Positions 8,918 through 64,000 of a stretch of DNA of 64,000 bases are shown in pieces. Made by a program: the position numbers and the translations under genes. The number at the start of each line of letters is the position of its first letter. Within the stretch, counting starts at the first letter, position 1. The notes beneath the pieces are model-generated. The model was given only the letters and a program-made list of their open reading frames with translations. It did no database searches and was not told the DNA's origin. This DNA is from Synechococcus sp. JA-2-3B'a(2-13) (GTDB lineage Bacteria > Cyanobacteriota > Cyanobacteriia > Thermostichales > Thermostichaceae): the NCBI RefSeq assembly GCF_000013225.1, contig NC_007776.1, positions 1,321,277-1,385,276 of the forward strand. The letters are read 5' to 3'.

Positions 8918-9415
8918 TCGGGGTATTGCCCCATCCCAACAGGGGGCTGAGAACGACGTACTCATCCTGCCAAAGCTCCCGCCGCTCTGAAAGTAAAGGT
9001 TTTAGGCGTGGGTCAGTGCCCCAGTTTGAATCGAAATGACCATAAGTCTGACATTCCCGTCCATAGGATTGAGATAGCCACAGGCAAAAATTCATCTGTT
9101 GCTGTTCCAAAAATGGGTAACACATAAAAGTTTGGGGCAGTAGCAACTGGCAGTGTCACCCCATAGACAGCCGCGAAAACAGTTCACAGTGAACTCAGAT
9201 TTATCTGGCCTTAAAACTTGAAGCCAGTTTACAAAAAATTTACCTACAGTTGATATCCAGTGGGGTTTTGGATTCAGGAGTTCGCGTGATTTGACAGGGA
9301 AAGTTTTGGATCCGCAAAGGGTAACCTGAAACCAAGGAAAGGCTGGAATACTGGGGCAAGCTCCTTTGGGTTTAGCTAAGTGCCTGATTTCTCCCGAAGC
9401 GGGACTGGAACTGCT
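8918..9415. other. Intergenic region, 498 bp, nothing recognised
   Basis: Lower in G+C than its neighbours and with only one GGATCC site, at 9309. I see no conserved gene, RNA gene or clear terminator. It probably contains the promoter of the pilin-like gene. Confidence 0.5.
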
Positions 9416-9925
9416 ATGAGTCGGTTTTCCCCTCATGAAGTGTATCTCCGGAGAATCCTCTTTCGTCTGGCCACTGCGGCTCCTCGTGGCATGACATTGA
9501 TCGAGTTGCTGGTGGTCATCGTGATTGTCGGTACTCTCTGCGCGGTGGCCATTCCCAACCTGCTCAACCACATTCGCCGCTCCAGAGTTGCTGAAGCCCA
9601 AACAGCTTTGGCGACCATTGGCCGTGCTTCGGAAATCTTCCGCATGGACTTTACGGTTTATCCCTCCGGCTACGCCGATATTGAATTCGGAGGGATCCAC
9701 GGGGATCGTTATCTGCAAGATCCCTGGCAAGCCTACAACTACCGTCTTCCCGAAGTTGTTCCTCCCACACCTGGCCCAAGCGGCATTCGTTGGATGACGG
9801 AGTCTCACACCTACACAGCTGCTGGTGGGAATCCCCTGCGCTGTGACATCGGCCTCGGGGATCGCCAGCAAGAGGTTCTGGTCTCTGGCTACGACCTGCA
9901 CAACTCCTGCAACCTTTATCATTGA
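9416..9925 (+). CDS. Type IV pilin-like / pseudopilin protein
   Basis: 169 residues. The prepilin signature is clear: basic leader ending PRG, then M-T-L-I-E-L-L-V-V-I-V-I-V-G (residues 26-39), with Glu at +5 of the mature protein and the hydrophobic N-terminal helix. The leader is long (about 25 residues). The rest has the PDPW-type motif DPWQAYNYRL seen in pilin/GspG-like proteins and ends with two cysteines (LRCDIGL and NSCNLYH) that may form the C-terminal disulfide loop. Expected to be processed by PilD and assembled into pili used for motility or DNA uptake. ATG at 9416 preferred over 9380. Confidence 0.87.
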   Translation: MSRFSPHEVYLRRILFRLATAAPRGMTLIELLVVIVIVGTLCAVAIPNLLNHIRRSRVAEAQTALATIGRASEIFRMDFTVYPSGYADIEFGGIHGDRYLQDPWQAYNYRLPEVVPPTPGPSGIRWMTESHTYTAAGGNPLRCDIGLGDRQQEVLVSGYDLHNSCNLYH

Positions 9926-19464: not shown

Positions 19465-20727
19465 ATGGCCAGCTCTGCCCTCTCCGCTTCGGAACGAGCC
19501 TTGAGCCTTTACGAGGCTCTGCCCTACCCTAATGTGCCCCTCTCGCAGACGGCCCGCAACGCCCTGCCGGAGATGTTCAAGATGAGCTATACCACGGCTC
19601 AGTACCTGCGCACCCATACCATCGTCCCGCCAGAGGGCAAGGTGTTGTTGAATGCCGGCTGTGGCTCCGGCTGGGAAACGTTGATGATGGCCGAGGCCAA
19701 TCCAGGGGCCCAGATTGTTGCCTGTGATCTGTCTCCGGCTTCGGTCAAGCTTACCGAGGAACGCCTGCGCCACCACGGCTTCGCAGATGCCGAGTTTTAT
19801 GTCCTCAATCTGCTGGAGCTGGAGCGTCTGGGGATCCAGTTTGATTTCATTAGCCTCAATGATGTTTTGTATTTGCTGGAGGATCCCACCGAGGGCCTGC
19901 GGGCCATGAAAAATGTCCTCAAGCCCGATGGCATCATCCGGGCCAATCTCCACAGCCGCTACCAACGGCAGGTGTTTTTCCGCCTGCAAGAGGGGTTGCA
20001 AAAGGTGGGGCAATTTGACGTTCCGCCAGCAGTAGGGGCCAAGAATGTGCGGGAGTTCATGGGATCCCTGCGAGAAGAAGTGGCCCAGGCGGTGCTCTGG
20101 AACCCGGCCAACTATGCCGAAGATGCGGCCATTATGAATAATTACCTACTCTCCAACGACAAAGGGTTCACGATCCCCGACCTGTTTCGCATGTTGCAGC
20201 AGGCGGGGTTGAGCTTTTTGAGCTTGGTGGATAGGCCCGACTGGTCGGTGGAGTCTTTGTTTAAAGAGGTGCCTGAGTTTGTGCGGCAGCGGTTGGCAAC
20301 CCTCAGCATCATGGAGCGGCTGCATCTGTATGAACTCCTTCGCCCTGTCCATCGCCTCATCGACTTTTGGGCGGAGCATGCCGGCTCTTCGCCGGTGCTG
20401 CCTTGGAGTGACGAAGATTGGCTGTCGGGATCCGTACAATTCAATCCCCTGTTGATGGACAACCCCCGCTTTCGCCAGGAGTACAGCAAAGCCCTGCAAG
20501 AGAAGCGGCCCTACGAAATGCAGTGGACAGGGGCCACCCACGGGCGGATCAGCATCCCTGCCGAGAACGTGAGCTGGTTGGCGCCACTGCTTCAAGGACC
20601 AACGCCGGTTCGAGAGCTGATTCAACAGGCCGTCCAGTTGGGATCCCCAGATGAAGAACGAACAACCGCTGAGGTGCTGACCTTCCTAACCAACCTAGAA
20701 GACTTTCTTTTTTTGATGCTGCAATAG
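19465..20727 (+). CDS. Class I SAM-dependent methyltransferase
   Basis: 420 residues. SAM-binding motif I LLNAGCGSGWETLMMAE (about 60-75), motif II IVACDLSPASVKLTEERL, and FDFISLNDVLYLLEDPTEGL with LKPDGIIRANLHSRYQ form a Rossmann methyltransferase over residues 50-200. The remaining half, including EFVRQRLATLSIMERLHLYE and a C-terminal segment near HGRISIPAENVSWL, has no family I can name. Substrate unknown. It ends six bases before a 281 bp inverted repeat. Confidence 0.85.
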   Translation: MASSALSASERALSLYEALPYPNVPLSQTARNALPEMFKMSYTTAQYLRTHTIVPPEGKVLLNAGCGSGWETLMMAEANPGAQIVACDLSPASVKLTEERLRHHGFADAEFYVLNLLELERLGIQFDFISLNDVLYLLEDPTEGLRAMKNVLKPDGIIRANLHSRYQRQVFFRLQEGLQKVGQFDVPPAVGAKNVREFMGSLREEVAQAVLWNPANYAEDAAIMNNYLLSNDKGFTIPDLFRMLQQAGLSFLSLVDRPDWSVESLFKEVPEFVRQRLATLSIMERLHLYELLRPVHRLIDFWAEHAGSSPVLPWSDEDWLSGSVQFNPLLMDNPRFRQEYSKALQEKRPYEMQWTGATHGRISIPAENVSWLAPLLQGPTPVRELIQQAVQLGSPDEERTTAEVLTFLTNLEDFLFLMLQ

Positions 20728-24588: not shown

Positions 24589-26751
24589 TTAGCTACTGAC
24601 TGGGAGAACTTTTGACCGAAGAGGTTCTATTGAAACGTCATGAAGGATATACCTTCTACTCAAGTAGCAAAGAGTACCTCTATGTGTGTGAACTATGTTT
24701 CCCTTGTACAAAACATGGGTAGGGCATAGGATCTGGTCTATTAATCGTCTATCTTCTTCAGAGTGAAACTCTAGGTATATTATCTTAATGTCGACTAGAA
24801 TTTCGAACAAATCCTTTAATACTTGGGTCTCACTACCTTCAGCATCTATCTTGAGAATATCGATGTTGTAAGCGCCAGCACTCTTTAGAAATGAGCCTAG
24901 GAATGAGCTTGCCTTTACAAGCTGTACAACTCTTGGAAAGTCACCATGTTGGTTCTTGTGTATCGAACTACAAAGGGACGATACAAGACTACTGTAGAAA
25001 GTCTTGGTGATATCATCACTGTACAGCCCAAAAGGGTATACAGTGCAGCCGCCTATCTCTAGGCTGTTTAGCTTCAGCAAGTGAAGAGCTACAGGGTCAG
25101 GCTCGAAGCAAAGAATAGTAGCATTTGGATAAAGCATTCGAAAGTAGGCGCTTGCGATGCCTATGTTTGCTCCTACATCAACAATTATTGATACGCCATC
25201 GACGAAGTTTAAAAAAGGATATGACTGCTTACTAAAGATTTCGTCAGTCGTGAATAGCGCTGCGTCTTCTTCCTCCCTATAAAAATTGAGATGTAGTGTC
25301 CAAGAAGATCCATCCGCTCTATTCACGCCCAAGGGAACTCTTTCAACGTTCGCTAACTTTGTTGCGTTCGAGAACACCAATTGATTTTGTTCATCAAGGA
25401 CAAAAACAAATTTTAAGTAGGGCAGGAGTCGAGAAGTAAGATGGCTGTTGGATCTGGCAATCAGAACATCCCAAGTCGCAGTACCTAAGTGGCTGGACTC
25501 TTCCTCCCAGACATGTACTCTGGAAACGACCCTCTCGTCCTTGGGAAGCTCAGACACTGGGAACCCGGCCTCAACATAGACTTCTAGTCTCGGCAGATCC
25601 AGGAGATCTGCCACAACTGCTACTGGGCAGTCTTTGCTAACCAGTACCTTAAGTTGCTCCTCTACACGGTGTAACTCCTGAACAGGTTCGTAGATAGCAA
25701 GGCGTGTATTGACAAGATCTCTGTAGGCAGTGCTAATGAAAAATCTGGGATCGGACTTAGCTGCGTAAAAGTTGGGTAGCTCTCCCTTGAAAACCCAATT
25801 CATCAGATCGGCTATCCGATGCTTGGGATGCCAGTCCACAAGAAACTTTTCATAAGCTCTTTTAGCTATCTCTAGAGCCAGCCCTGGATTTTCTAGGTAA
25901 AACTTGATTTTCTCAACTAGCTCCAGCTCAGAACTATAGACGTCGCAGTATAAGCCGGGGCTCAGATACTCATCAAAGCCGGATGCAAAGGAGAGCTTGT
26001 CTGTCAGCAAAAAGCCACCCGCAGAAATCACTTCCAGGTTCCTAAGGTTCAGATCCCCATTCAGGCTGCAGTTAAACGAAATCAGCGATTCGGCAAATAG
26101 GCGGGCTGCCTCTTGACGGTTGGCAGTTTTGGCAAGAATGGGCAAGTGTGCCCTCTTTATGGCTTCGACCAGACGGGAACGTCTGGGATGCCCGGATCCC
26201 TGATGGCCAATAAAGACAACTTGGCTTTCTCTTGCTTCTACCCACTTGTGGACAACCGTATGCATGAAGATGAGAGGTAGCCAGGCCAGGTTTTCCGCGC
26301 CCGCCGCGGCAAACCAGTGCAGGTGCTGGCGGTTGTGAGCAGTAACAACATAATCAAAGGCTTCAACGCCCCAGTAGGCCAAAAGATGTTGGATGGGGAA
26401 GTGGCGATGATGCGTATCTCCGGCTAGTAAGACGGTTGGACAGCCAAATTTTTTCGTGTTGAAGGGGTTGCTGTAGTCGCAGCTGGAAGCTAGTACAATC
26501 ACCAAGTCAAACTCTTTATCCACAATCTGCTCAGACTGCTGGACAAAGTCATAGAGGTCATAATCTCCTTCCGGACACTCCACCAAGCCTTCACGACGGT
26601 TGACATAGCCTAGTCCACAGCCCCCCACTCTTTTTTTGGGACAGACAGTTACTTGCCGATCTGAAAGCTGCGGCGGTGGGATGTAGTCTGGCGCAACTGG
26701 CCAGCTCAGGAGAACTCGCGGTTGCAGAGTTTCTTTGTTGGAATTTTCCAT
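24589..26751 (-). CDS. CgeB-like glycosyltransferase fused to FkbM-family methyltransferase
   Basis: 720 residues. The N-terminal half (about 1-330) resembles CgeB/GT1-like transferases: DKEFDLVIVLASS, NTKKFGCPTVLLAGDTHHRH, VVFIGHQGSGHPRRSRL, and ISFNCSLNGDLNLRNLEVIS AGGFLLTD. The C-terminal third is an FkbM O-methyltransferase: VDVGANIGIASAYFR (about residue 520), ILCFEPDPVALHLLKLN, DILKIDAEGSETQVL and IIYLEFHSEEDRRLI. A linker of about 150 residues lies between. AAGGACG before the ATG supports the start. More AT-rich and with fewer GGGATCCC sites than housekeeping neighbours, suggesting acquisition. Likely acts on a surface polysaccharide or glycoprotein; substrate unknown. Confidence 0.85.
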   Translation of the reverse strand: MENSNKETLQPRVLLSWPVAPDYIPPPQLSDRQVTVCPKKRVGGCGLGYVNRREGLVECPEGDYDLYDFVQQSEQIVDKEFDLVIVLASSCDYSNPFNTKKFGCPTVLLAGDTHHRHFPIQHLLAYWGVEAFDYVVTAHNRQHLHWFAAAGAENLAWLPLIFMHTVVHKWVEARESQVVFIGHQGSGHPRRSRLVEAIKRAHLPILAKTANRQEAARLFAESLISFNCSLNGDLNLRNLEVISAGGFLLTDKLSFASGFDEYLSPGLYCDVYSSELELVEKIKFYLENPGLALEIAKRAYEKFLVDWHPKHRIADLMNWVFKGELPNFYAAKSDPRFFISTAYRDLVNTRLAIYEPVQELHRVEEQLKVLVSKDCPVAVVADLLDLPRLEVYVEAGFPVSELPKDERVVSRVHVWEEESSHLGTATWDVLIARSNSHLTSRLLPYLKFVFVLDEQNQLVFSNATKLANVERVPLGVNRADGSSWTLHLNFYREEEDAALFTTDEIFSKQSYPFLNFVDGVSIIVDVGANIGIASAYFRMLYPNATILCFEPDPVALHLLKLNSLEIGGCTVYPFGLYSDDITKTFYSSLVSSLCSSIHKNQHGDFPRVVQLVKASSFLGSFLKSAGAYNIDILKIDAEGSETQVLKDLFEILVDIKIIYLEFHSEEDRRLIDQILCPTHVLYKGNIVHTHRGTLCYLSRRYILHDVSIEPLRSKVLPVSS

Positions 26752-28210: not shown

Positions 28211-30946
28211 CTAGGAGGCCAACAGCAACACAGGTAGCTTTTGAATAGCAGGCCGTAATCCCTTGGGAAAGCGCTCCCGCTTCAAGAGATAGCGATAGTT
28301 GAGTTGGGGAATAAGTCTCTCCCATTGATAGGGGTTCAAGCCAGCTACCACTGAACAGAACGGCTCTCTACTGAGCTCTAACCCCTCTTCCATGAGCCTG
28401 AGAGCTATGTTGCCTGCAGCTATCTCCAGAGTTTGATTGGCCAGTTGCGGATCCGGATCCCCTAGGAAGATCAGAGCATAGTCTTCTGGCTGAGGACTGC
28501 GCAGAATTGGCTCCAGCAAGCCCTCCAGTTCTTGGATAAGCTGCTCTGTCTCCATTTCCCAGTAGGGGAAAAGGCCCACGTTGATCTTGCTCAGGCGGAT
28601 CCCTTGTGGTTTGGAGGTTTCTGTTAGGCTATCTCTCATCACTACCAGGTTTTCTGAAGGACTCAGCCAAACTCCTGAGTAATCGACACTATGGAGCTGA
28701 AAAAAGGCTCTGATTTCCTGCTCGAAGTCATGAACAGCTTTGCAACATCCTTGCCAGTCGTGGTAGTCATCAACTTGGATAAACCCCCTGGGGTTAACTT
28801 GATGGTAGAGATGACGGAAAATATCCATCGTCGACTGATACCAGTCTGCATCTGCATGCAGCAAGGCAATCTCGCTCACCTGCTCTCGATAAACAGGCAA
28901 GGTGTCAGCAAAAAGCCCTGGCACAGGAACAATGAGATCCCAGACCCCTAGTTCCCTGGCAATCACCTCTAAGTTCTCCGAAATGGGTGCCGCTAAAGCA
29001 CCGGATCCACAACCCGTATCGTTGGCAGCAACTCCTCGATAATCTCGATCCACCTCTGTTGGATCAGGCATACCTGAGAAGGTATCGAAAGCATATAGCT
29101 TGCGAGGTCGACGGCTGTAGTTCTTAATCACCCAGGCCAGCAAAGCTGAGCTTCCACCCCTGCAAACACCACATTCTACAAAGTTCCCAGGAATGTCTTC
29201 TTCACAAACCTGCTTAGCCAGTGAATAAAGGCTCCAAAGACGCTCAAAGCCCAGCAAGGTAAAAAATTTAACTTTCTCTAGCACCCTAGACAACTCAAGG
29301 TTACAGACCGGATAGTCCTTGAGGTGCTCTGGCAATGTCCAATTCACAGCAGGGTCTGGAATATGCTCAACGGGCTTGACATTGCCTCGCCAGGCCACTC
29401 CCATAATTTGCATGGTCTGGTAAATCATCGTGTTCCAGCCCCTGTCTCTCAAGTAATTCAAACCTTCAGCCACATCCGGCGAGGCTAGATTATGAAACAG
29501 AATCAAGGCATCCTCAGCAGCATAGCGCTCTGCCACTTGAGCATCCTGCAAGGGGGCTGGTGAGTCATGATTCCCATCGATGAAAATCAGAGACCAGCGA
29601 CAATCCTCTTGCTGGGCAATCTCCTCCACCTTCCCTGGGCTGTAGCCAGGGTAGAGATTGACATTAGAGCGAACTCCAGCCGAGCGAAGAGATTGATCCA
29701 CACTTCCATAAATCTGGGGATCGGCCAGAGCAGGATCTACCACATCGAGAATAACTCCTCCTGCCGCCAGGTGCGCAGTTGACCAACCTAACCAACACCC
29801 AATCTCCAAAGCGTTTTTTCCTTGTAGCTTAAGGGCAGTGTTATAAAGAATGTGGGCTTCATCTCGACTGACAAAGCCAATACCAGGCTTGCGTTGATCT
29901 GCGTACCAAAGATGTGGAACTTCTTTCCGTAGATAAGGCCAGGGGTGAGAGCTTGGCTCGGCCGCAATCATTAAAGGAAAGCTATGGTCAAGATGTATTC
30001 TTCTGAGGCTAGCCGCTACGTAGTCGTACCTCCTAGCTGGGTTAGCTACTGGGCCTGGATACCGAAGGCTGACTTCAACCTTAAAGCCCTCAGTTGTAAG
30101 TGCAATGTGAGTTGGTGCTAGCTTAGCATCACCTGCAAGATGCATGATCCCTATTGGATTGTGGGGTGGAAAACAATCTACCCAGAGCTTCCTTTGTGGA
30201 TCCCATAGAGGCAGTTTTTGGTGGCAAGCCCAATGACAGTGTGAAGGCAGTAGTTCAACAATATCTATTCCACAATCCCTATAGATCGTCGCATTTAGAG
30301 CGTGCTGCTCTCCGTAGTAAGGCTTATCAAGGCCTCTAAAAACGCGAGATAGATTTGAAATACATTGACCTAGTCTATACTTCCATCTTGACCAAACGAA
30401 AGAGTCACTGCGTCCAGAGATTGCACCGGTGTTTAGGACTGGCATCAGGTGCAGGTTGCTATGCTCTGGAGTGCAGTCCGTGAGATGGAAGTAGTCCCAG
30501 TATTTTGCAAAAAGAAAACTTACGTGAAGAGAAACCGAAGGAGTAAAGAGAGTATTTAACGGCTCAATAGCGATTGCAAAGCCTTTGTGCCTAGCTCCTA
30601 GGATAAAAAGCTCGATTGCAGACCAATCTTGTACCCAGGTATCTGCATCAAGCCAGATGTAAACTTCATAGCCTGGAAAGTAATCAGCAATGAAAGGTCT
30701 ACACAACTGCGCCTTAAGATAGCCGGGCTGCCTATCAATATCAGGAATGTCATAAGTCCACCCTGGCTCAACGATATAATCAACATGCTGACTTATCCAC
30801 TTTAGCTGCTCGGGTGTACAACCCACATCGAGAAACGCAATATCTACAGAGCTTCCCTGCGGCTTCTCTCGTATAGAGAGAATAGTCCCCTGAACTAACT
30901 CAAAAAACTTGCTGTCAGCACCTGTAACGATGATAGTTGAGTTCAT
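28211..30946 (-). CDS. Giant fusion: glycosyltransferase + class I methyltransferase + TylF-like methyltransferase
   Basis: 911 residues from MNSTIIVTGADSKFFE (AGGAG upstream). Part 1 (about 1-300) is a GT-A-like transferase with a DAD metal motif in YIWLDADTWVQDW (100-102) and a late H-x-A-GD segment. Part 2 (about 365-540) is a Methyltransf_24-like domain: ALEIGCWLGWSTAHLAAGG, SLIFIDGNHDSPAPL. Part 3 (about 585-760) is TylF/MycF-like: FVECGVCRGGSSALLAWV, AFDTFSGMPDPTEVDRDY, LLHADADWYQSTMDIFRHL, GFIQVDDYHDW (metal-binding acidic residues present). Part 4 (about 785-911) is unassigned. Last gene of a four-gene minus-strand run; 65% or so of it is nearly identical to the next gene upstream. 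Probably modifies a surface glycan. Confidence 0.85.
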   Translation of the reverse strand: MNSTIIVTGADSKFFELVQGTILSIREKPQGSSVDIAFLDVGCTPEQLKWISQHVDYIVEPGWTYDIPDIDRQPGYLKAQLCRPFIADYFPGYEVYIWLDADTWVQDWSAIELFILGARHKGFAIAIEPLNTLFTPSVSLHVSFLFAKYWDYFHLTDCTPEHSNLHLMPVLNTGAISGRSDSFVWSRWKYRLGQCISNLSRVFRGLDKPYYGEQHALNATIYRDCGIDIVELLPSHCHWACHQKLPLWDPQRKLWVDCFPPHNPIGIMHLAGDAKLAPTHIALTTEGFKVEVSLRYPGPVANPARRYDYVAASLRRIHLDHSFPLMIAAEPSSHPWPYLRKEVPHLWYADQRKPGIGFVSRDEAHILYNTALKLQGKNALEIGCWLGWSTAHLAAGGVILDVVDPALADPQIYGSVDQSLRSAGVRSNVNLYPGYSPGKVEEIAQQEDCRWSLIFIDGNHDSPAPLQDAQVAERYAAEDALILFHNLASPDVAEGLNYLRDRGWNTMIYQTMQIMGVAWRGNVKPVEHIPDPAVNWTLPEHLKDYPVCNLELSRVLEKVKFFTLLGFERLWSLYSLAKQVCEEDIPGNFVECGVCRGGSSALLAWVIKNYSRRPRKLYAFDTFSGMPDPTEVDRDYRGVAANDTGCGSGALAAPISENLEVIARELGVWDLIVPVPGLFADTLPVYREQVSEIALLHADADWYQSTMDIFRHLYHQVNPRGFIQVDDYHDWQGCCKAVHDFEQEIRAFFQLHSVDYSGVWLSPSENLVVMRDSLTETSKPQGIRLSKINVGLFPYWEMETEQLIQELEGLLEPILRSPQPEDYALIFLGDPDPQLANQTLEIAAGNIALRLMEEGLELSREPFCSVVAGLNPYQWERLIPQLNYRYLLKRERFPKGLRPAIQKLPVLLLAS
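28751..29790 (-). repeat. Gene-conversion tract, 1040 bp, paralogue A
   Basis: Aligns without gaps to 31601-32640 (constant offset 2850). I find about six or seven mismatches in 1040 bp, while both flanks diverge abruptly. It covers the first methyltransferase and most of the TylF domain. Confidence 0.88.
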
Positions 30947-31027
30947 AGCTCCTAATTTTCCTCCAACAACAATCTTAGCCATCAGGAAGAAAAAACAAGG
31001 GCATGCCCCCAGGCAGAAAGTAGGTGC

Positions 31028-33781
31028 CTATAACACAGGCAACCTCTGGACAGCCAGCCGCAGGCCTTGAGGAAAGCGCTCGTGCTTCAGAGGATAGCGA
31101 TAGTTCAGTTGGGGAATCAGCCTCTCCCATTGATGGGGGTTCAACCCAGCCACTACAGAAGAGAATGGCTCTCTGCCTAGCTCCAGCCCTACTTCCATGA
31201 GCTTGAGGACTACGTTGCCCGCAGCTATCTCCAGGGTTCGATTAGCCACTTGCGGATCCGGGTCTCCCAGGAAGATCAGGGCATAGTCTTCTGGGTTGGG
31301 GCTACGTAGAATTGACTCCAACAGAACCTCCAACTCTTGCACAAGCTGCTCTGTCTCCATCTCCCAGTAGGGGAAAAGACCCACGTTAATCTTGCTTAGA
31401 CGGATCCCTTCTGGTTTGAAGGTTTGTATCGAACCATCTGTAATTACCAGCCAGTTCTCAGAGGGACTTAGCCATACAGCACTAGGCCAACCCTGCACCT
31501 CTGCGCTATCTGGCTTCCAGCCATATGGCTCAGCTACACTGTGTAGCCGGAAGAAGACTCCAAGTTCCTGCTCGAAGTCATGAACAGCCTTTGCACATTC
31601 TTGCCAGTCGTGGTAGTCATCAACTTGGATAAACCCCCTGGGGTTAACTTGATGGTAGAGATGACGGAAAATATCCATCGTCGACTGATACCAGTCTGCA
31701 TCTGCATGCAGCAAGGCAATCTCGCTCACCTGCTCTCGATAAACAGGCAAGGTGTCAGCAAAAAGCCCTGGCACAGGAACAATGAGATCCCAGACCCCTA
31801 GTTCCCTGGCAATCACCTCTAAGTTCTCCGAAATGGGTGCCGCTAAAGCACCGGATCCACAACCCGTATCGTTGGCAGCAACTCCTCGATAATCTCGATC
31901 CACCTCTGTTGGATCAGGCATACCTGAGAAGGTATCGAAAGCATATAGCTTGCGAGGTCGACGGCTGTAGTTCTTGATCACCCAGGCCAGCAAAGCCGAG
32001 CTTCCACCCCTGCAAACACCACATTCTACAAAGTTCCCAGGAATGTCTTCTTCACAAACCTGCTTAGCCAGTGAATAAAGGCTCCAAAGACGCTCAAAGC
32101 CCAGCAAGGTAAAAGATTTAACTTTCTCTAGCACCCTAGACAACTCAAGGTTACAGACCGGATAGTCCTTGAGGTGCTCTGGCAATGTCCAATTCACAGC
32201 AGGGTCTGGAATATGCTCAACGGGCTTGACATTGCCTCGCCAGGCCACTCCCATAATTTGCATGGTCTGGTAAATCATCGTGTTCCAGCCCCTGTCTCTC
32301 AAGTAATTCAAACCTTCAGCCACATCCGGCGAGGCTAGATCATGAAACAGAATCAAGGCATCCTCAGCAGCATAGCGCTCTGCCACTTGAGCATCCTGCA
32401 AGGGGGCTGGTGAGTCATGATTCCCATCGATGAAAATCAGAGACCAGCGACGATCCTCTTGCTGGGCAATCTCCTCCACCTTCCCTGGGCTGTAGCCAGG
32501 GTAGAGATTGACATTAGAGCGAACTCCAGCCGAGCGAAGAGATTGATCCGCACTTCCATAAATCTGGGGATCGGCCAGAGCAGGATCTACCACATCGAGA
32601 ATAACTCCTCCTGCCGCCAGGTGCGCAGTTGACCAACCTAGCCAACAGCCGATCTCTAGGGCGTTTTTTCCTTGTAGCTTAAGGGCAGTATTGTACAGAA
32701 TATGAGCCTCGTCTCGACTAACAAAGCCGATAGTAGGTTGACGCAAATCCGCAGTCCAAAGGTGAGGAACTTCTTTCCGTAGATAAGGCCAGGGCTGAGG
32801 CCCTGGATCGATAGCAGTCATTAGAGGGAAGCTGTAGTCGAGATATATTTTCTTTTGATTAGCTGATACATAGTCATACCTTCTGATTGGAGAAGAATGG
32901 CTTCTAGGATACCAAAGACTGGCTTCAACTTTGAAGCCATCGGTAGTATGAGCTACATGAGTTTTTCTATCCTTAGCTTTATAGGTAATGTGTAGAATCC
33001 CTAAAGGGATGTAAGGCTTCCAAGGCTCAACCCAGAGCTTTCTTTTTGGATCCCATAGAGGTAGTTTACTATGAACTGTCCAGTTACAAAACAATGGTAA
33101 AATTTGAACGTTATCTATCCCTAAGTCATTATGAATAGCCACGTTTAGAGAATACTGATCTGGAGGTGAGAGTAGATCGAGGCTCATAGAGATAGCTTGG
33201 CTCAGTCTGTTTTTCCATGCTACCCAGTGAATACCGGAATTACTTCCAGAGAATACACCAGCATTTAGAATTGGTCTTATGTATAGGTGGTTATATACAT
33301 GTCCAAAGTCATATACATGTCCAAAGCACCTGATGTATCCCGAGAGGTGAAAAGCTTGATGCGAAAATGGATAGGGATCGAAGAGAGTATTTAGCAACTC
33401 AGGAACAACTGCAAGGTTTTTGTATCTTGCTCCCAGGGTAAGAAGCTCAATTGCAGACCAGTCTTGCACCCAAGCATCTGCATCAATCCAAATATAAACT
33501 TCATAGCCTGGAAAGTATTCAGGAAGGAAAGGCCTACAAACTAGTGCCTTGAGATACTTGGGTTGTCTATCAATGTCGGGAATATCATAGTCCCAATCTG
33601 GCTCAACAATGTGGTCAACGTACTGACCTATCCATTGCAACTGCTCCGGTGTACAGCCTACATCCAAGAATCCAATATCTACAGAGTGCCCCTGAGGTTT
33701 TTCTCGGATGGAGAGAATGGTCCCCTGAACCAATTCAAAAAACTTGCTGTCAGCAGCCGTAACGATAATGGTTGAGTTCAT
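31028..33781 (-). CDS. Giant fusion paralogue: glycosyltransferase + two methyltransferase domains
   Basis: 917 residues, same architecture as the gene at 28211: DxD motif in YIWIDADAWVQDW, ALEIGCWLGW in the first methyltransferase, FVECGVCRGG and HADADWYQST in the TylF-like domain, and a C-terminal domain beginning near LSKINVGLFPYWEMETEQL. The central 1.04 kb is more than 99% identical to its paralogue at the DNA level while the glycosyltransferase part and the TylF tail are clearly diverged (for example the insertion AEPYGWKPDSAEVQGWP here). Starts four bases after the stop of the preceding gene with GGAGGAG upstream, so translation is probably coupled. Confidence 0.85.
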   Translation of the reverse strand: MNSTIIVTAADSKFFELVQGTILSIREKPQGHSVDIGFLDVGCTPEQLQWIGQYVDHIVEPDWDYDIPDIDRQPKYLKALVCRPFLPEYFPGYEVYIWIDADAWVQDWSAIELLTLGARYKNLAVVPELLNTLFDPYPFSHQAFHLSGYIRCFGHVYDFGHVYNHLYIRPILNAGVFSGSNSGIHWVAWKNRLSQAISMSLDLLSPPDQYSLNVAIHNDLGIDNVQILPLFCNWTVHSKLPLWDPKRKLWVEPWKPYIPLGILHITYKAKDRKTHVAHTTDGFKVEASLWYPRSHSSPIRRYDYVSANQKKIYLDYSFPLMTAIDPGPQPWPYLRKEVPHLWTADLRQPTIGFVSRDEAHILYNTALKLQGKNALEIGCWLGWSTAHLAAGGVILDVVDPALADPQIYGSADQSLRSAGVRSNVNLYPGYSPGKVEEIAQQEDRRWSLIFIDGNHDSPAPLQDAQVAERYAAEDALILFHDLASPDVAEGLNYLRDRGWNTMIYQTMQIMGVAWRGNVKPVEHIPDPAVNWTLPEHLKDYPVCNLELSRVLEKVKSFTLLGFERLWSLYSLAKQVCEEDIPGNFVECGVCRGGSSALLAWVIKNYSRRPRKLYAFDTFSGMPDPTEVDRDYRGVAANDTGCGSGALAAPISENLEVIARELGVWDLIVPVPGLFADTLPVYREQVSEIALLHADADWYQSTMDIFRHLYHQVNPRGFIQVDDYHDWQECAKAVHDFEQELGVFFRLHSVAEPYGWKPDSAEVQGWPSAVWLSPSENWLVITDGSIQTFKPEGIRLSKINVGLFPYWEMETEQLVQELEVLLESILRSPNPEDYALIFLGDPDPQVANRTLEIAAGNVVLKLMEVGLELGREPFSSVVAGLNPHQWERLIPQLNYRYPLKHERFPQGLRLAVQRLPVL
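31601..32640 (-). repeat. Gene-conversion tract, 1040 bp, paralogue B
   Basis: Partner of 28751-29790. Divergence resumes at both edges, at CATTC|TTGCCAG on one side and CAACCTA|GCCAACAG on the other. Confidence 0.88.
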
Positions 33782-33785
33782 AACC

Positions 33786-35837
33786 TTAAGTCTCTCCTCC
33801 AAGGCTTGAATTGTTGTCGACAAAGCAAGCCCTGCTTAGATAGCAAAGGACTCCTCTTTGGCCTGCTACAATTTCTCCCTGCCAGAGGAGATGGGTAGGG
33901 TCCAACATCTGGTCAATCTGCTTGCGGTCTTGCTCAGAAGTAAACTCCACGTAAATCACCTTGATGTCTTTGAGCTGCTCTTGCAGGCTGGTCAACACCT
34001 CCACCTCCTCTCCACCTGTAGCCACCCTGAGCACATCGATGGGCTCCAAACCCAACTCCTTGAGGGCTGCCCTGGCTTCCCGGAAAGGGAGCACCTGCTC
34101 CACTCCCCACTCGGCCTGAGGATCCTCCGGCCAGAGCCGACAAGTTCTGCAACTATCCTGCCCCGCCAGCCCCACTGGATGCACAAAGCAGTTGCCCAGG
34201 CCAAGAGCATTCTGCTGCAGCAGGTGCAAGGCCAAGGGATCCACCTCAAAACAATGAATGGCCGCCTCAGGGCAGAAACCCCGAAAACAAACGCTACCAA
34301 GGCCTACCCCAGCTCCGATGTCGATAACCGTCTGCACCTGGCTAGACAGAAACACAGGAAAGTTAAGATACGTCCTCTCGTAAAAAACGGTGTCTGGGTA
34401 GAGCTTTACCGAAAACCTGAGTTTGCCAAAGTCAAAGCCAGTCAACACTGCTTCCATTAACTTACTGGCATTGGCCAAAAGAAGTTGGTGGTCCTCTGCC
34501 AAGACAAAAGCAAAGTTAGCCCTCACAGACCGCCCCAGCCGCTGCAAGTCCTCAGCTGTGCACACCACAGCATCAAAGCTGGGCCAACTGGCTGGCTCTC
34601 CTCTCACCTCGTGAATTCGCTCGGGCACTCCCTTCTGCTGCAGCAGGGCACAGGGATCCCCAAACCCCTCTTCCACGTACAGCTCCAGCCGCGGCAAGTC
34701 CAGCAAGTCCGCGGCTATCACCCCAGGACAGCCTCGGCCAACAAATACCCTCAGTCGCTCCTGCACGCGATGCAGCTCTTGAATGGGCTCGTAGATTCCT
34801 AGTCGTGTGTCTATCCAGGCAGAGCTGGCCGTGCTGACAAAGTAGCGCACATCAGAGCGGGGCGAGTAACGAAAGGGCTCCGGCAGCTCTCCCCCAAACA
34901 CCCAGTCCAGCAGGTTCTGAATGCGGTGGCGGGGATGCCACTTTTCATCAAAGGTGTGGTAAGCGCGGCGGGCAATTTGAATGGCTTCTTGGGGATGGTC
35001 TAGGTAGTAGCGAACTTTTTCCAGGAGTTCGGCTTCGGAGTTGTAGGTGTCGCAGTAGGTGCCGGGCGCCAAAAGTTCGTCCAATCCTGAGGCGAAGGAG
35101 AGCTGGTCAGTGAGCAGAAAGCCCCCTGCAGAAATCACTTCCAAGTTCCTTAAGTTCAGATCCCCATTTTGGCTGCAGTTGAAAGAGATTAACGAGCCAC
35201 CAAATATTAGTTGAGGATTGTGGACTCGAGTCTTTATAAGTAGAGGTAGACCCAGTTTTTTCAAGGACATGATCAACTTAAGACGTCTGTAATGATAAGA
35301 GTTAAAATTAAGGTTACCCACAAACGCAACTCTAATTTCTTTCTTTTCTATCCAACTGGAGCTGGTGAGACAAGCGGAAATGAAAGGCAGCCAAGCTAGC
35401 CTTTGAACTCCTGCTGCTGCGAACCAGTGGAGGTGCTGTCGGTCATAGGCGGTGGCAATATAATCAAAGGCTTCAGTGGCCCAGTAAGTTAGAAGGTGGG
35501 TGATAGGGAGCACATGATGATGCGTATCTCCGGCTAGCAAGACAGTTGGGCAGCCAAATTTTTTCGTGTTGAAAGGACTAGTCAGATCAACACTCGATGT
35601 CCAGACAATCACCAAGTCAAATTCTTTGTCTTCGACTTGATCTGAATACTGGACAAATTCATAGAGGTCAAAGTCTTTGTCAGGACACTCAACTAAGCTT
35701 TTTGGAACACTAAAAAAATCGAATATCTGTCTTCTAACCTTTCCTTTCGGACATAGAGTTACTTGACGCTCTGAAAGAGTGAGAGGTGGGACATAATCAG
35801 GTGGAGTCATCCAAACTAGTAGAACTCGAGGATTCAT
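33786..35837 (-). CDS. CgeB-like glycosyltransferase fused to FkbM-like methyltransferase, second copy
   Basis: 683 residues, same two-domain plan as the gene at 24589. N-terminal part: LVIVWTSSVDLTSPFNTKKF, GCPTVLLAGDTHHHVLPI, VISAGGFLLTDQLSFASGLD. C-terminal part: VIDIGAGVGLGSVCFRGFCP (about residue 505), IHCFEVDPLALHLLQQNAL, IDVLRVATGGEEVEVLTSL and VIYVEFTSEQDRKQID. The methyltransferase reads RVATGGEE where FkbM members usually have KIDVEG, so the catalytic or substrate loop is altered. AGGAAG upstream of the ATG. First intact gene of the run leading into the two giant fusions. Confidence 0.83.
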   Translation of the reverse strand: MNPRVLLVWMTPPDYVPPLTLSERQVTLCPKGKVRRQIFDFFSVPKSLVECPDKDFDLYEFVQYSDQVEDKEFDLVIVWTSSVDLTSPFNTKKFGCPTVLLAGDTHHHVLPITHLLTYWATEAFDYIATAYDRQHLHWFAAAGVQRLAWLPFISACLTSSSWIEKKEIRVAFVGNLNFNSYHYRRLKLIMSLKKLGLPLLIKTRVHNPQLIFGGSLISFNCSQNGDLNLRNLEVISAGGFLLTDQLSFASGLDELLAPGTYCDTYNSEAELLEKVRYYLDHPQEAIQIARRAYHTFDEKWHPRHRIQNLLDWVFGGELPEPFRYSPRSDVRYFVSTASSAWIDTRLGIYEPIQELHRVQERLRVFVGRGCPGVIAADLLDLPRLELYVEEGFGDPCALLQQKGVPERIHEVRGEPASWPSFDAVVCTAEDLQRLGRSVRANFAFVLAEDHQLLLANASKLMEAVLTGFDFGKLRFSVKLYPDTVFYERTYLNFPVFLSSQVQTVIDIGAGVGLGSVCFRGFCPEAAIHCFEVDPLALHLLQQNALGLGNCFVHPVGLAGQDSCRTCRLWPEDPQAEWGVEQVLPFREARAALKELGLEPIDVLRVATGGEEVEVLTSLQEQLKDIKVIYVEFTSEQDRKQIDQMLDPTHLLWQGEIVAGQRGVLCYLSRACFVDNNSSLGGET

Positions 35838-35852: not shown

Positions 35853-36795
35853 CTAAAGATTACCACTGCTTTCGTAGAATATGCATCTATTCAGATAACA
35901 TAAGCACCCGTAGTTACCCTGAGAAACTTCCTCCTGCCAGAGGAGATGGGTAGGATCCAACATCTGGTCAATCTGCTTGCGGTCTTGCTCAGAAGTAAAC
36001 TCCACGTAAATCACCTTGATGTCTTCGAGCTGCTCTTGCAGGCTGGTCAACACCTCCACCTCATTCCCGCCTGTAGCCACCCTGAGCACATCGATGGGCT
36101 CCAAACCCAACTCCTTGAGGGCTGCCCTGGCTTCCCGGAAAGGGAGCACCTGCTCCACTCCCCACTCGGCCTGAGGATCCTCCGGCCAGAGCCGACAAGT
36201 TCTGCAGCTATTCTGCCCCGCCAGCCCCACTGGATGCACAAAGCAGTTGCCCAGGCCAAGAGCATTCTGCTGCAGCAGGTGTAGAGCTAGGGGATCCACC
36301 TCAAAACAATGAATGGCCGCCTCAGGGCAGAAACCCCGAAAACAAACGCTACCAAGGCCTACCCCAGCTCCGATGTCGATAACCGTCTGCACCTGGCTAG
36401 ACAGAAACACAGGAAAGTTAAGATACGTCCTCTCGTAAAAAACGGTGTCTGGGTAGAGCTTTACCGAAAACCTGAGTTTGCCAAAGTCAAAGCCAGTCAA
36501 CACTGCTTCCATTAACTTACTGGCATTGGCCAAAAGAAGTTGGTGGTCCTCTGCCAAGACAAAAGCAAAGTTAGCCCTCACAGGCCGCCCCAGCCGCTGC
36601 AAGTCCTCAGCTGTGCACACCACAGCATCAAAACTAGGCCAACTGGCTGGCTCCCCTCTCACCTCGTGAATTCGCTCGGGCACTCCCTTCTGCTGCAGCA
36701 GGGCACAGGGATCCCCAAACTCCTCTTCCACATACAGCTCCAGCCGCGGCAGGTCCAGCAAGTCTGCTGCTATCACTTCCGGACAGCCGCAACTA
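35853..36795 (-). pseudogene. Truncated copy of the FkbM-like half of the GT-FkbM fusion
   Basis: From about 36795 down, the sequence matches 33881-34740 almost base for base (offset 2055), covering the linker and the methyltransferase but not the glycosyltransferase half. It remains open for 307 codons (MIAADLLDLPRLELY to KRCIFYESSGN-like end) and might still be translated. Upstream it is cut off about 37 bp before the right end of a tnpB element. The extreme C-terminus differs from the intact copy. Confidence 0.8.
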
Positions 36796-36831: not shown

Positions 36832-36960
36832 GTAAACTACCCGGCTCCGACCGCTAAGCGGTACGGAGCGGGCTTTCAGTAGCCCTGAGCCTGCTCTGCT
36901 CTACCAGAGAACAAAACAGGCCCGAACCTCTAGGCTGGTTTACGGCAGCCCCCAAGAGCG
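36832..36960 (-). ncRNA. Right end and putative omega-RNA (reRNA) of tnpB copy 1
   Basis: On the minus strand the element ends AAGCCCG, hairpin CTCCG-T-ACCGC-TTA-GCGGT-CGGAG, then CCGGGTAGTTTAC (ending at 36832). The other tnpB copies share the AAGCCC-hairpin-GGGTAGTTTAC plan. The hairpin has one unpaired T, as in IS200/IS605 end hairpins. The tnpB stop codon lies in the hairpin loop, as expected for a guide RNA that overlaps the 3' end of tnpB. Confidence 0.5.
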
Positions 36961-38092
36961 CAATTACGTTTGCACCATTCAAGTCCGCATCTCCTTCCCA
37001 TCCACAGTGCCCACACTTGAACGACTTACCACTGCGGTAGGATTGCGCAGGATCGGGATGGATGTGTAAACACTTGTGACAGGTCTGCGACGTGTAGGCA
37101 GGCGGCACAAGAACCAGAGAAACCCCTGCAACTCTCGCCTTGTATTCCAGAAACTGGCGTAGCTGGTAGAACGCCCAACTGTTGGTTCTGCGCCGTTCGG
37201 CCTTGTTGCGCGGCTGTTGATTGACCCTTTCCCGGATCCCTGTCAGGTCTTCCAGGGCAATAGCGCTGTTTGTGGTCTTTGCCCTAGAGACAATAGCTTT
37301 GGAGATTCGATGATTGACCCACGCCTGAAAGCGCCTCTCCTTGCCAGACAGCCGTTGCAGCAGTTGACGGCATCTGCGCCGCGAACTGCGTGTGCCCTTA
37401 CTGGCTTTGCGTTGGAGTACCGCCCTCAACCGGGAGTAGTGGTCTCGTACCTTGTTTAACTGCTGTCCATTCCAGTTCTTCCCCTCTGAGGTATGAGCGA
37501 TATCTATCCTTCCCAAATCCACCCCGATCACCTTGTCGGTATCTTGTTGCTTGGGTGGTTTTTTCTCTACGCAAATCTGGATGTAGTAGGAGCCATCTTT
37601 GCGCTTGACCAGGGTGGCAGATTTGGGGTTGGAACCAGCCAGCATCCCACGCTGGTAGTTGCCAATGGCCAGTTCAAAGCGTTCTCTCCCTTCCACCGTG
37701 GTCAGCGACACCGTCCAGTCTTTTTGACGGAACGAAAAGATGCGAGCGTCGTAGGTAACAAAGCCGCTCTCAAACTCCTTGACGGGACGCTTTTTCTGCT
37801 TAGCCACTTTGCGGGAACCCGCTACCCGTCTGCACACCTGTTGGTCGCGTAAGCGGGACGTAGTCCTTGCCAAGTTACTGGACAAGCCAAACCGGGCTCG
37901 AATCTCGTAGTAGCAAAGGGATTGCAGCTTGACCGCGTTGACGATCTTCTCCGGCGTGTTCTGGTTGACCCAATTCAAGGCTTGGCCAAAAGCCTCCAAA
38001 GTCGCGTCCAATTTGGCGGCTTGCGACGGGGACACCTTGAGCTTGCAGGATATGGTCAGGACTTGGCTCATAAGTTCATTGTACTTCATCAA
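36854..38092 (-). CDS. tnpB: TnpB-family RNA-guided nuclease (solitary IS200/IS605), copy 1
   Basis: 412 residues, full length. RuvC-like acids are Asp192 (IGVDLGRIDIAH), Glu281 (AIALEDLTGIRERV) and Asp370 (EGDADLNGANVIALL). The zinc finger is C338-x-x-C341 (TCHKC) and C360-x-x-C363 (KCGHC). All are present, so it may be active. Residues 76-83 (RTTSRLRD) are an eight-residue insertion absent from the copy at 62990 and encoded exactly by a 24 bp dispersed repeat. The tail after NQPRG is translated end-RNA. No tnpA is adjacent. An ATG 21 bases downstream of the first is also possible. Confidence 0.92.
   Translation of the reverse strand: MMKYNELMSQVLTISCKLKVSPSQAAKLDATLEAFGQALNWVNQNTPEKIVNAVKLQSLCYYEIRARFGLSSNLARTTSRLRDQQVCRRVAGSRKVAKQKKRPVKEFESGFVTYDARIFSFRQKDWTVSLTTVEGRERFELAIGNYQRGMLAGSNPKSATLVKRKDGSYYIQICVEKKPPKQQDTDKVIGVDLGRIDIAHTSEGKNWNGQQLNKVRDHYSRLRAVLQRKASKGTRSSRRRCRQLLQRLSGKERRFQAWVNHRISKAIVSRAKTTNSAIALEDLTGIRERVNQQPRNKAERRRTNSWAFYQLRQFLEYKARVAGVSLVLVPPAYTSQTCHKCLHIHPDPAQSYRSGKSFKCGHCGWEGDADLNGANVIALLGAAVNQPRGSGLFCSLVEQSRLRATESPLRTA
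37845..37868 (-). repeat. 24 bp dispersed repeat inserted in tnpB copy 1 (occupied site)
   Basis: On the minus strand it starts AAGGACTACGTCC and ends CGCTTACGCGA. Copy 3 of tnpB continues straight across the same point (63980/63981), giving an exact 24 bp, in-frame occupied/empty pair. Confidence 0.9.
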
Positions 38093-62984: not shown

Positions 62985-63095
62985 GTAAACTACCCGACCC
63001 TGACTGCTTCGCAGTACAGGGCGGGCTTTCGGTAGCCCTGCAGTTGGCAAGCCAACCACGGACCTCTAGGCTGGTTTACAGCAGCCCCCAAAAGC
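62985..63095 (-). ncRNA. Right end / putative omega-RNA of tnpB copy 3
   Basis: Minus strand: GAAAGCCCG, hairpin CCCTG-T-ACTGC-GAA-GCAGT-CAGGG with one unpaired T, then TCGGGTAGTTTAC ending at 62985. It is the simplest of the three ends and serves as the empty-site reference for the two repeat insertions in element 2. Confidence 0.5.
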
Positions 63096-64000
63096 GCAAT
63101 CACATTCGCACCATTCAAATCCGCATCCCCTTCCCATCCACAGTGTCCACACTTAAACTTCTTTCCACTGCGATAGGATTGCGTAGGATCGGGATGGATG
63201 TGCAAACACCGGTGGCAGGTCTGCGACGTGTAGGCAGGCGGAACCAGCACCACAGGTACTCCGGCAATGGCAGCCTTGTAGACCACGAACATCCTAAGCT
63301 GGTAGAATGCCCAGTTATTGGTTCTGCGGCGCTCAGCTTTGCTGCGTGGCTGTTGATTGACCCTTTCCCGGATCCCTGTCAAGTCTTCCAGAGCAATAGC
63401 GCTGTTTGTCGCCTTTGCCCTAGAGACAATAGCTTTGGAGATGCGATGATTGACCCACGCCTGAAAGCGCCTCTCCTTGCCAGACAGCCGTTGCAACAGT
63501 TGACGGCATCTGCGCCGCGAACTGCGGGTGCCCTTACTGGCTTTGCGTTGGAGTGCCGCCCTCAACCGGGAGTAGTGGTCTCGGACTTTGTTCAACTGCT
63601 GTCCATTCCAGTTATCCCCCTCTGACGTATGGGCAATATCTGTCCTTCCCAAGTCCACCCCCAGCACTCTGCCCGTGCGTTGCGGTGGGGATGGCTCCGC
63701 TTCCACACAGATCTGAATAGAGTAGGAACCGTCTTTACGCTTGACCAGAGTGGCGGATTTGGGGTTGGAGCCTGCCAACTGTTCTCTCTGGTAGCGGCCA
63801 ATCGCCAGCTCAAAGCGCTCCCGACCCTCCACCGTGGTCAGCGACACCGTCCAGTCTTTCTCGCGAAACGAAAAGATACGGGCATCGTAGGTCGCAAAGC
63901 CTCTCTTGAACGCTTTGACCGGACGGTTTTTCTGTCGGGCAACTTTACGGGCACCGGCCAGCCGTCTGCAGACCTGCTGGGCCAGATTACTGGACAAGCC
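62990..64000 (-). CDS. tnpB: TnpB-family RNA-guided nuclease, copy 3, cut by window edge
   Basis: At least 335 residues visible; the N-terminus lies beyond the window. RuvC acids present in LGVDLGRTDIAHTS, IALEDLTGIRERV and EGDADLNGANVIALL, and the zinc finger in TCHRC and KCGHC. Closely similar to copy 1 but without its eight-residue repeat-derived insertion (reads SSNLAQQVCRR). The arm FYQLRMFVVYKAAIAG differs from copy 1 (QLRQFLEYKARVAG). No tnpA in view. Probably intact. Confidence 0.9.
   Translation of the reverse strand, partial: GLSSNLAQQVCRRLAGARKVARQKNRPVKAFKRGFATYDARIFSFREKDWTVSLTTVEGRERFELAIGRYQREQLAGSNPKSATLVKRKDGSYSIQICVEAEPSPPQRTGRVLGVDLGRTDIAHTSEGDNWNGQQLNKVRDHYSRLRAALQRKASKGTRSSRRRCRQLLQRLSGKERRFQAWVNHRISKAIVSRAKATNSAIALEDLTGIRERVNQQPRSKAERRRTNNWAFYQLRMFVVYKAAIAGVPVVLVPPAYTSQTCHRCLHIHPDPTQSYRSGKKFKCGHCGWEGDADLNGANVIALLGAAVNQPRGPWLACQLQGYRKPALYCEAVRVG

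Follow-up and report, generated by a model that had tools for sequence, protein, structure and literature searches.

Tandem glycosyltransferase–methyltransferase proteins of Synechococcus sp. JA-2-3B'a(2-13) as candidate polyenzymes of type IV pilin glycosylation

Two neighbouring genes of Synechococcus sp. JA-2-3B'a(2-13) encode proteins in which a glycosyltransferase (GT), two different methyltransferases and an unnamed C-terminal domain (CTD) are joined in a single chain. Their sequences, structural models and gene position together suggest that each protein is probably a cytoplasmic polyenzyme of the system that glycosylates the type IV pilin PilA. Type IV pili serve motility, phototaxis, DNA uptake and the control of biofilms in cyanobacteria. 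Glycosylation of PilA is known, but most of the enzymes that take part in it besides Ogt await assignment, and the polyenzymes described here are candidates for that work.

The genes lie in a stretch of 64,000 nucleotides (hereafter the window; contig NC_007776.1, positions 1,321,277 to 1,385,276) of a genome that forms one contig of 3,046,682 bp. The two open reading frames follow each other on the minus strand, 81 nt apart, and both read GT–Methyltransf_24–TylF–CTD (Table 1). A preliminary description of this DNA, made without database searches, had proposed two tandem proteins, each with one GT and two different methyltransferases; the reading frames, Pfam matches and models all confirm this, and its suggestion that sugar transfer and two methylations could be housed in one chain is likewise backed by sequence and models. 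The unassigned C-terminal domain, which it put at about 125 residues, corresponds to the C-terminal ~110 residues, where no Pfam family matches. No segment of the polyenzymes is hydrophobic enough for a transmembrane helix (the highest Kyte-Doolittle mean over 19 residues is 1.34), so both should be cytoplasmic. The polyenzyme copies and the GT-FkbM gene next to them form a co-directional array.

Table 1. Features of the window discussed in the text, with coordinates counted from its first nucleotide
Feature	Coordinates	Strand	Remarks
Copy 1, polyenzyme GT-Methyltransf_24-TylF-CTD	28211..30946	-	911 aa from conserved Met (ATG at 30946); ORF to 30982 = 923 aa
Copy 1, GT-A-like domain	30056..30937	-	motif WLDAD
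Copy 1, Methyltransf_24 domain	29297..30025	-	FHN replaces FHD at near-invariant family motif
Copy 1, TylF/MycF-type sugar O-methyltransferase domain	28685..29290	-	HADADWY, VDDY
Copy 1, CTD	28265..28600	-	without Pfam family
Copy 2, polyenzyme	31028..33781	-	917 aa from conserved Met; ORF to 33823 = 931 aa
Copy 2, GT-A-like domain	32906..33772	-	motif WIDAD; fold matches UGGT (GT24) first, GT6 next
Copy 2, Methyltransf_24 domain	32147..32875	-	COMT-like SAM fold
Copy 2, TylF domain	31535..32140	-	Pfam match, conserved motifs, model fold
Copy 2, CTD	31070..31405	-	module common to other pilin-linked GT/methyltransferase proteins
GT-FkbM protein	33786..35837	-	4 nt upstream of copy 2 start codon; 96% identical to pilA-island GT-FkbM
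Second GT-FkbM gene, 5'-truncated (FkbM half only)	35853..36776	-	94% identical to other pilA-island GT-FkbM protein
Duplicated segment	33870..36788	-	2.94 kb, 95.7% identical to pilA island, G000:476588-479523 (L148 6588-9523)
TnpB-type (IS605 OrfB/Cas12f1-like) gene	36854..38092	-	borders duplicated segment
Third, more distant GT-FkbM protein	24589..26751	-	48% identical to 33786-35837
Class I methyltransferase, possible accessory	19465..20727	+	40% identical to methyltransferase adjoining pilA in many cyanobacteria
Type IV pilin-like gene, possible accessory	9380..9925	+	48% identical to pilA of the window genome

Both methyltransferase domains are recognised well above the Pfam gathering cut-offs: Methyltransf_24 (PF13578; here MT24) scores 80.5 and 81.9 bits against a cut-off of 26.3 (E 2e-22 and 7e-23), and TylF (PF05711) 133.4 and 128.9 bits against 23 (E 1e-38 and 3e-37). 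In the models both have the fold of SAM-dependent methyltransferases, and the lack of SAM-binding geometry that the preliminary description had named as telling against it was not found. Model residues 304-518 match cation-dependent O-methyltransferases (SafC, COMT-like) with Z 18.5 over 182 residues, while residues 523-776 match MycF (Z 24.2, 189 residues, rmsd 2.5), SpnH (Z 23.8, 185 residues, rmsd 2.2) and NovP, all with Z 22-24. A profile search of solved structures with the TylF part returned SpnH, NovP, MycF and CalS11. As for its N-terminal segment (profile positions 1-66), the Pfam match begins at position 67-68, and the model aligns from residue 1 of MycF. The acidic metal and catalytic motifs of the TylF family, DxDWY and DDY, are present in both copies, with no change in the acidic residues among 18 relatives. 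This domain's nearest kin of solved structure, SpnH, MycF and NovP, are all sugar O-methyltransferases, so that a role in glycan methylation is the natural reading.

The preliminary description also had all key motifs looking intact. The catalytic motifs are indeed kept in both copies, with the qualification that the first methyltransferase of copy 1 departs from the FHD found in nearly all of 33 Methyltransf_24 relatives, sharing its FHN with the homologue in a sister genome. That this domain is inactive in copy 1, through loss of a metal ligand, was considered and dropped: in the family profile alignment the third position of the motif coincides with the Asn of the D-N pair in solved enzymes, and the change is therefore probably tolerated.

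The GT part is harder to place. It falls below every Pfam cut-off in both copies, and its family profile found no PDB sequence at E <= 1. Glyco_transf_8 (PF01501) scores 17.3 and 16.4 bits, under the cut-off of 24.3, and membership of GT8 was rejected on that ground. Since the GT part was poor in the full-length model (pLDDT 30-60), it was modelled by itself from an alignment of 19 sequences, in which a W-[IL]-D-A-D motif is near-invariant. The resulting model (mean pLDDT 65, pTM 0.67) has its best fold match in the catalytic domain of UGGT (Foldseek E 3e-5; VIA Z 9.6, rmsd 3.9, 185 residues), followed by GT6 enzymes. The motif and the model bear out the earlier description of a GT-A-like domain with DxD; as the mean pLDDT is only 65, assignment to a retaining-type GT-A fold is held at moderate confidence. 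UGGT and GT6 are retaining GT-A families, and an alpha-linkage of the transferred sugar is on that account reasonably, if weakly, suggested. Membership of GT24/UGGT or of GT6 was set aside: the GT-A fold and DxD are there, while a sequence relation to a solved member was not found. The GT-A domain has a stand-alone relative (32% identity), annotated only as a glycosyltransferase, on a plasmid of Azospirillum thermophilum (L149 14989-15915), and further relatives occur on other Azospirillum plasmids; among the plasmid matches listed, relatives were confined to the GT and methyltransferase parts.

The four-part architecture recurs across cyanobacteria and is not a single oddity; no description of it was found in the literature searched. 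The enzyme is present in four of the six genomes of the genus, and the genomes of several filamentous cyanobacteria encode GT-MT24-TylF-CTD proteins that include a TPR-like linker. The MT24-TylF pair is found by itself in Nostocales and also fused to GT4 proteins, and MT24 is combined with GT2 as well. The CTD is wider still in its associations: it was detected in 24 of 95 sampled cyanobacterial genera, in dozens of GT and methyltransferase proteins, with GT4, GT41, GT11-like, FkbM, CmcI-type and other modules as partners. Against Pfam it gave scattered single-member chance matches and no family, and its profile returned nothing usable from the PDB sequences. The CTD offers a simple sequence mark for many uncharacterised GT and methyltransferase proteins tied to pilA. 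Ogt-dependent glycosylation of PilA was known; the polyenzymes, their methylation module and the shared CTD were not found described in the papers searched.

The tie to pilA came to light because prepilin genes (GFTLIELLVV...) were seen beside many of these enzymes, and the linkage was tested for that reason. Among 27 genomes chosen only for presence of the CTD, with pilin genes located by PF07963, 19 have a CTD gene no more than 10 kb away from a pilin gene (expected 0.29; P 2e-32). A further set, of 25 genomes, was partly picked for having the enzyme, and 16 of its 22 CTD-positive members show the same (expected 0.32; P 8e-26). The genomes share ancestry, so that fewer events are independent than these P values imply, and the values are to be read as "far beyond chance" rather than literally. 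The neighbourhoods have a common core that comprises the pilin and a TPR/GT41 (Ogt-like) gene, in many cases also a class I methyltransferase of ~440 aa, with the CTD proteins following; a GT41/Ogt-like gene adjoins the pilA-type pilin in almost all of the pilin neighbourhoods checked. Among 24 GT/MT24 proteins, 10 of the 15 with the CTD are encoded no further than 15 kb from a pilin gene, as against 0 of 9 without it (P 0.0015), a correlation that is suggestive only, since six of the nine CTD-less proteins come from one genus. None of the relatives in three genomes (G284, G011 and G118) lies near a pilin gene. The preliminary description had seen in the island a compact surface-glycan methylation system. 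Glycan methylation is supported, and the strong linkage of CTD genes to pilin genes refines the proposal, favouring a pilin glycan over O-antigen or exopolysaccharide; the linkage does not prove the substrate.

Other features of these neighbourhoods may be recorded here. In one genome (G056, L141 6398-19001) six tandem ORFs resembling TPR/GT41-type (Ogt-like) proteins lie downstream of two pilin genes. In Nostocales (L024, L025, L030, L037, L043) the stand-alone MT24-TylF gene sits between GT4-like and solute-binding-protein genes, away from pilA. A MalG-like ABC permease gene, mostly accompanied by a ROK-type kinase gene, is found near the pilA/CTD islands of several genera (L130, L132, L133, L143; also L023, L034). 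A link to sugar ABC transporters (solute-binding-protein gene, permease, ROK kinase) was considered and set aside, as it fails in the window genus.

Two genomes of the genus besides that of the window have the enzyme at a distance of 7-8 kb from pilA and a GT41 (Ogt-like) gene. In G516 (2.93 Mb) a single row of 15 kb contains an Ogt-like GT41-FkbM gene (the assignment comes from the window genome, whose homologue is 80% identical), pilA, GT2, a 2OG-Fe(II) oxygenase, GT-FkbM, GT-MT24-TylF-CTD, Uma2 and lpxD; in G519 the enzyme, the Ogt-like gene and pilA are all found within 8 kb. The two enzyme-less genomes keep pilA and the Ogt-like gene, have no GT-FkbM gene in those neighbourhoods, and contain no CTD anywhere in the genome. 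In the window genome pilA (at 485 kb) is accompanied by Ogt-like, GT2 and two GT-FkbM genes at 476-489 kb, and the polyenzyme pair stands at 1350 kb by lpxD; the pair is not adjacent to pilA there, the nearest pilin gene being a paralogue ~18 kb off. The island seen whole in G516 is split in the window genome. The duplicated segment of Table 1 abuts copy 2, and the two GT-FkbM genes have the same order at both sites, the window copy of the second being truncated at the border with TnpB. Such adjacency is not needed for function, so our claim is a role within the pilin system, which is what we infer.

Three further observations concern the same loci. The TnpB-type gene copies at 36854-38092 and 62990-63997 of the window have ~88% DNA identity to the copy in the pilA island. 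The 2OG-Fe(II) oxygenase gene is intact in G516 (L109 5995-7314) and split by TnpB at the pilA island of the window genome (L148 11117-13727, ~481.1-483.7 kb). Beside the pilin-like gene at 9380-9925 no glycosyltransferase gene was noticed.

Part of this evidence would also fit a system in which the enzymes build and methylate some other surface glycan (LPS O-antigen, capsule or exopolysaccharide), the pilin genes being neighbours only as co-variable surface loci. The gene adjacent to the enzymes in the window and sister genomes is lpxD, of lipid A; the stand-alone MT24-TylF proteins of Nostocales are encoded away from pilin loci, as are the GT-MT24 proteins of one genus (g13) that lack a CTD; and the lower G+C content of the island (46-52%, against 58-61% around it) and its variable presence in the genus suit a surface-glycan island of any kind. 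We nevertheless consider this explanation rather unlikely, in view of the very strong linkage of the CTD to pilin and GT41 genes, repeated in many genera, and of the fact that, among the pilin-like genes, the linkage mostly concerns the pilA-type copy with the top score rather than the minor-pilin clusters; nor were O-antigen assembly genes noticed beside the enzymes, in what was an unsystematic look.

The two copies are 78% identical in protein overall, and the identity is very unevenly spread: 61% in the GT, 92% in MT24, 99% in TylF and 85% in the CTD. Nucleotide identity is only ~70% in the GT part, and exceeds 98% over codons ~398-744, a tract with abrupt edges. In the GT tree copy 1 clusters with the sister genome (support 0.90), and in the methyltransferase tree the two window copies cluster together (0.98). 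This conflict between trees and the sharply bounded tract are the signature of gene conversion, which appears to have homogenised the methyltransferase cassette. On this evidence the gene would have been duplicated in the window genome, with gene conversion keeping the methyltransferase part uniform while the GT part diverged, and the outcome may be two sugars, or two linkages, carrying the same methylation. The pair illustrates one way in which the sugars could be varied while methylation is held constant.

Passive homogenisation by recombination might also be seen in decaying duplicates, and one or both copies could have little function. The truncation of the neighbouring GT-FkbM gene, with a TnpB element beside it, and the FHN of copy 1 lend some colour to this, but we think it quite improbable: both reading frames, each of more than 900 codons, are intact and keep their catalytic motifs despite the divergence of their GT parts, and three further genomes of the genus carry intact homologues. 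Least probable of all is that the enzymes produce or tailor a small glycoside, soluble or lipid-linked, resembling a secondary metabolite, as named TylF members do, the closest solved kin of the TylF domain being enzymes that act on macrolide, aminocoumarin and enediyne sugars; PKS or NRPS genes were not noticed around the loci examined, and the CTD is common to pilin-linked glycosyltransferases.

If the polyenzymes do belong to the pilin system, then Ogt would place the first sugar on prepilin PilA, and the GT domains of the polyenzymes, of the GT-FkbM proteins and of others would extend the glycan with sugars that are probably alpha-linked (retaining). The MT24 and TylF domains would O-methylate two hydroxyls of the added sugar or of its neighbour. 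What the two-methyltransferase module predicts is that PilA bears an O-methylated sugar, possibly one with two O-methyl groups. The CTD would tether the enzymes to one another or to the pilin substrate, an idea prompted by the nearness to pilin genes of GT/MT24 proteins that bear it, compared with those that do not. More speculatively, and with considerable doubt, it may be proposed that cyanobacterial pilin glycans in general are built by combinatorial modular polyenzymes, drawing on GT-A, GT4, GT2, GT41, FkbM, MT24, TylF and TPR modules in varied order with the shared CTD for docking, and are changed by swapping of modules, with gene conversion as one means, moving a fixed methylation cassette between GT domains that have diverged.

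Parts of this scheme can be set beside systems already described. The TylF domain resembles TylF, MycF, NovP and SpnH (PF05711) in profile score, in its acidic metal-site motifs and in fold; it differs in being one link of a four-module chain, where the solved enzymes stand alone and act on antibiotic sugars. The GT domain shares DxD with the retaining GT-A enzymes of UGGT (GT24) and GT6/GT8, among which its model finds its best fold matches, and is unlike them in having no sequence-level match, its score for the GT8 Pfam family being sub-threshold. At the level of whole islands there is an analogy, and an analogy only, with the flagellin glycosylation islands of Enterobacteriaceae and Geobacillus, where, as far as the consulted portions of these reports go, GT41-methyltransferase fusions and FkbM enzymes lie by the target gene (PMC4875605, PMC5109656). 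There too the target gene, GTs and methyltransferases (FkbM and others) share one variable island; the target in those other phyla is flagellin rather than pilin, and the MT24-TylF didomain and the CTD were not seen in the same portions. Closest is the cyanobacterial pilA locus itself. In Synechocystis the unprocessed prepilin is already glycosylated, and a further gene, with homologues near pilin genes, has been suggested to be needed (PMC8546353). According to the sections consulted of a review (PMC12288463), ogt adjoins pilA and PilA glycosylation is Ogt-dependent; those accounts cover Ogt and other single factors, with no mention there of polyenzymes or of glycan O-methylation. The pilin family, the GT41/Ogt neighbour and, in most CTD genomes checked, the loci themselves are the same as here, and as members of a pilin system, as we infer them to be, polyenzymes of the window type extend this known pilA-ogt glycosylation locus.
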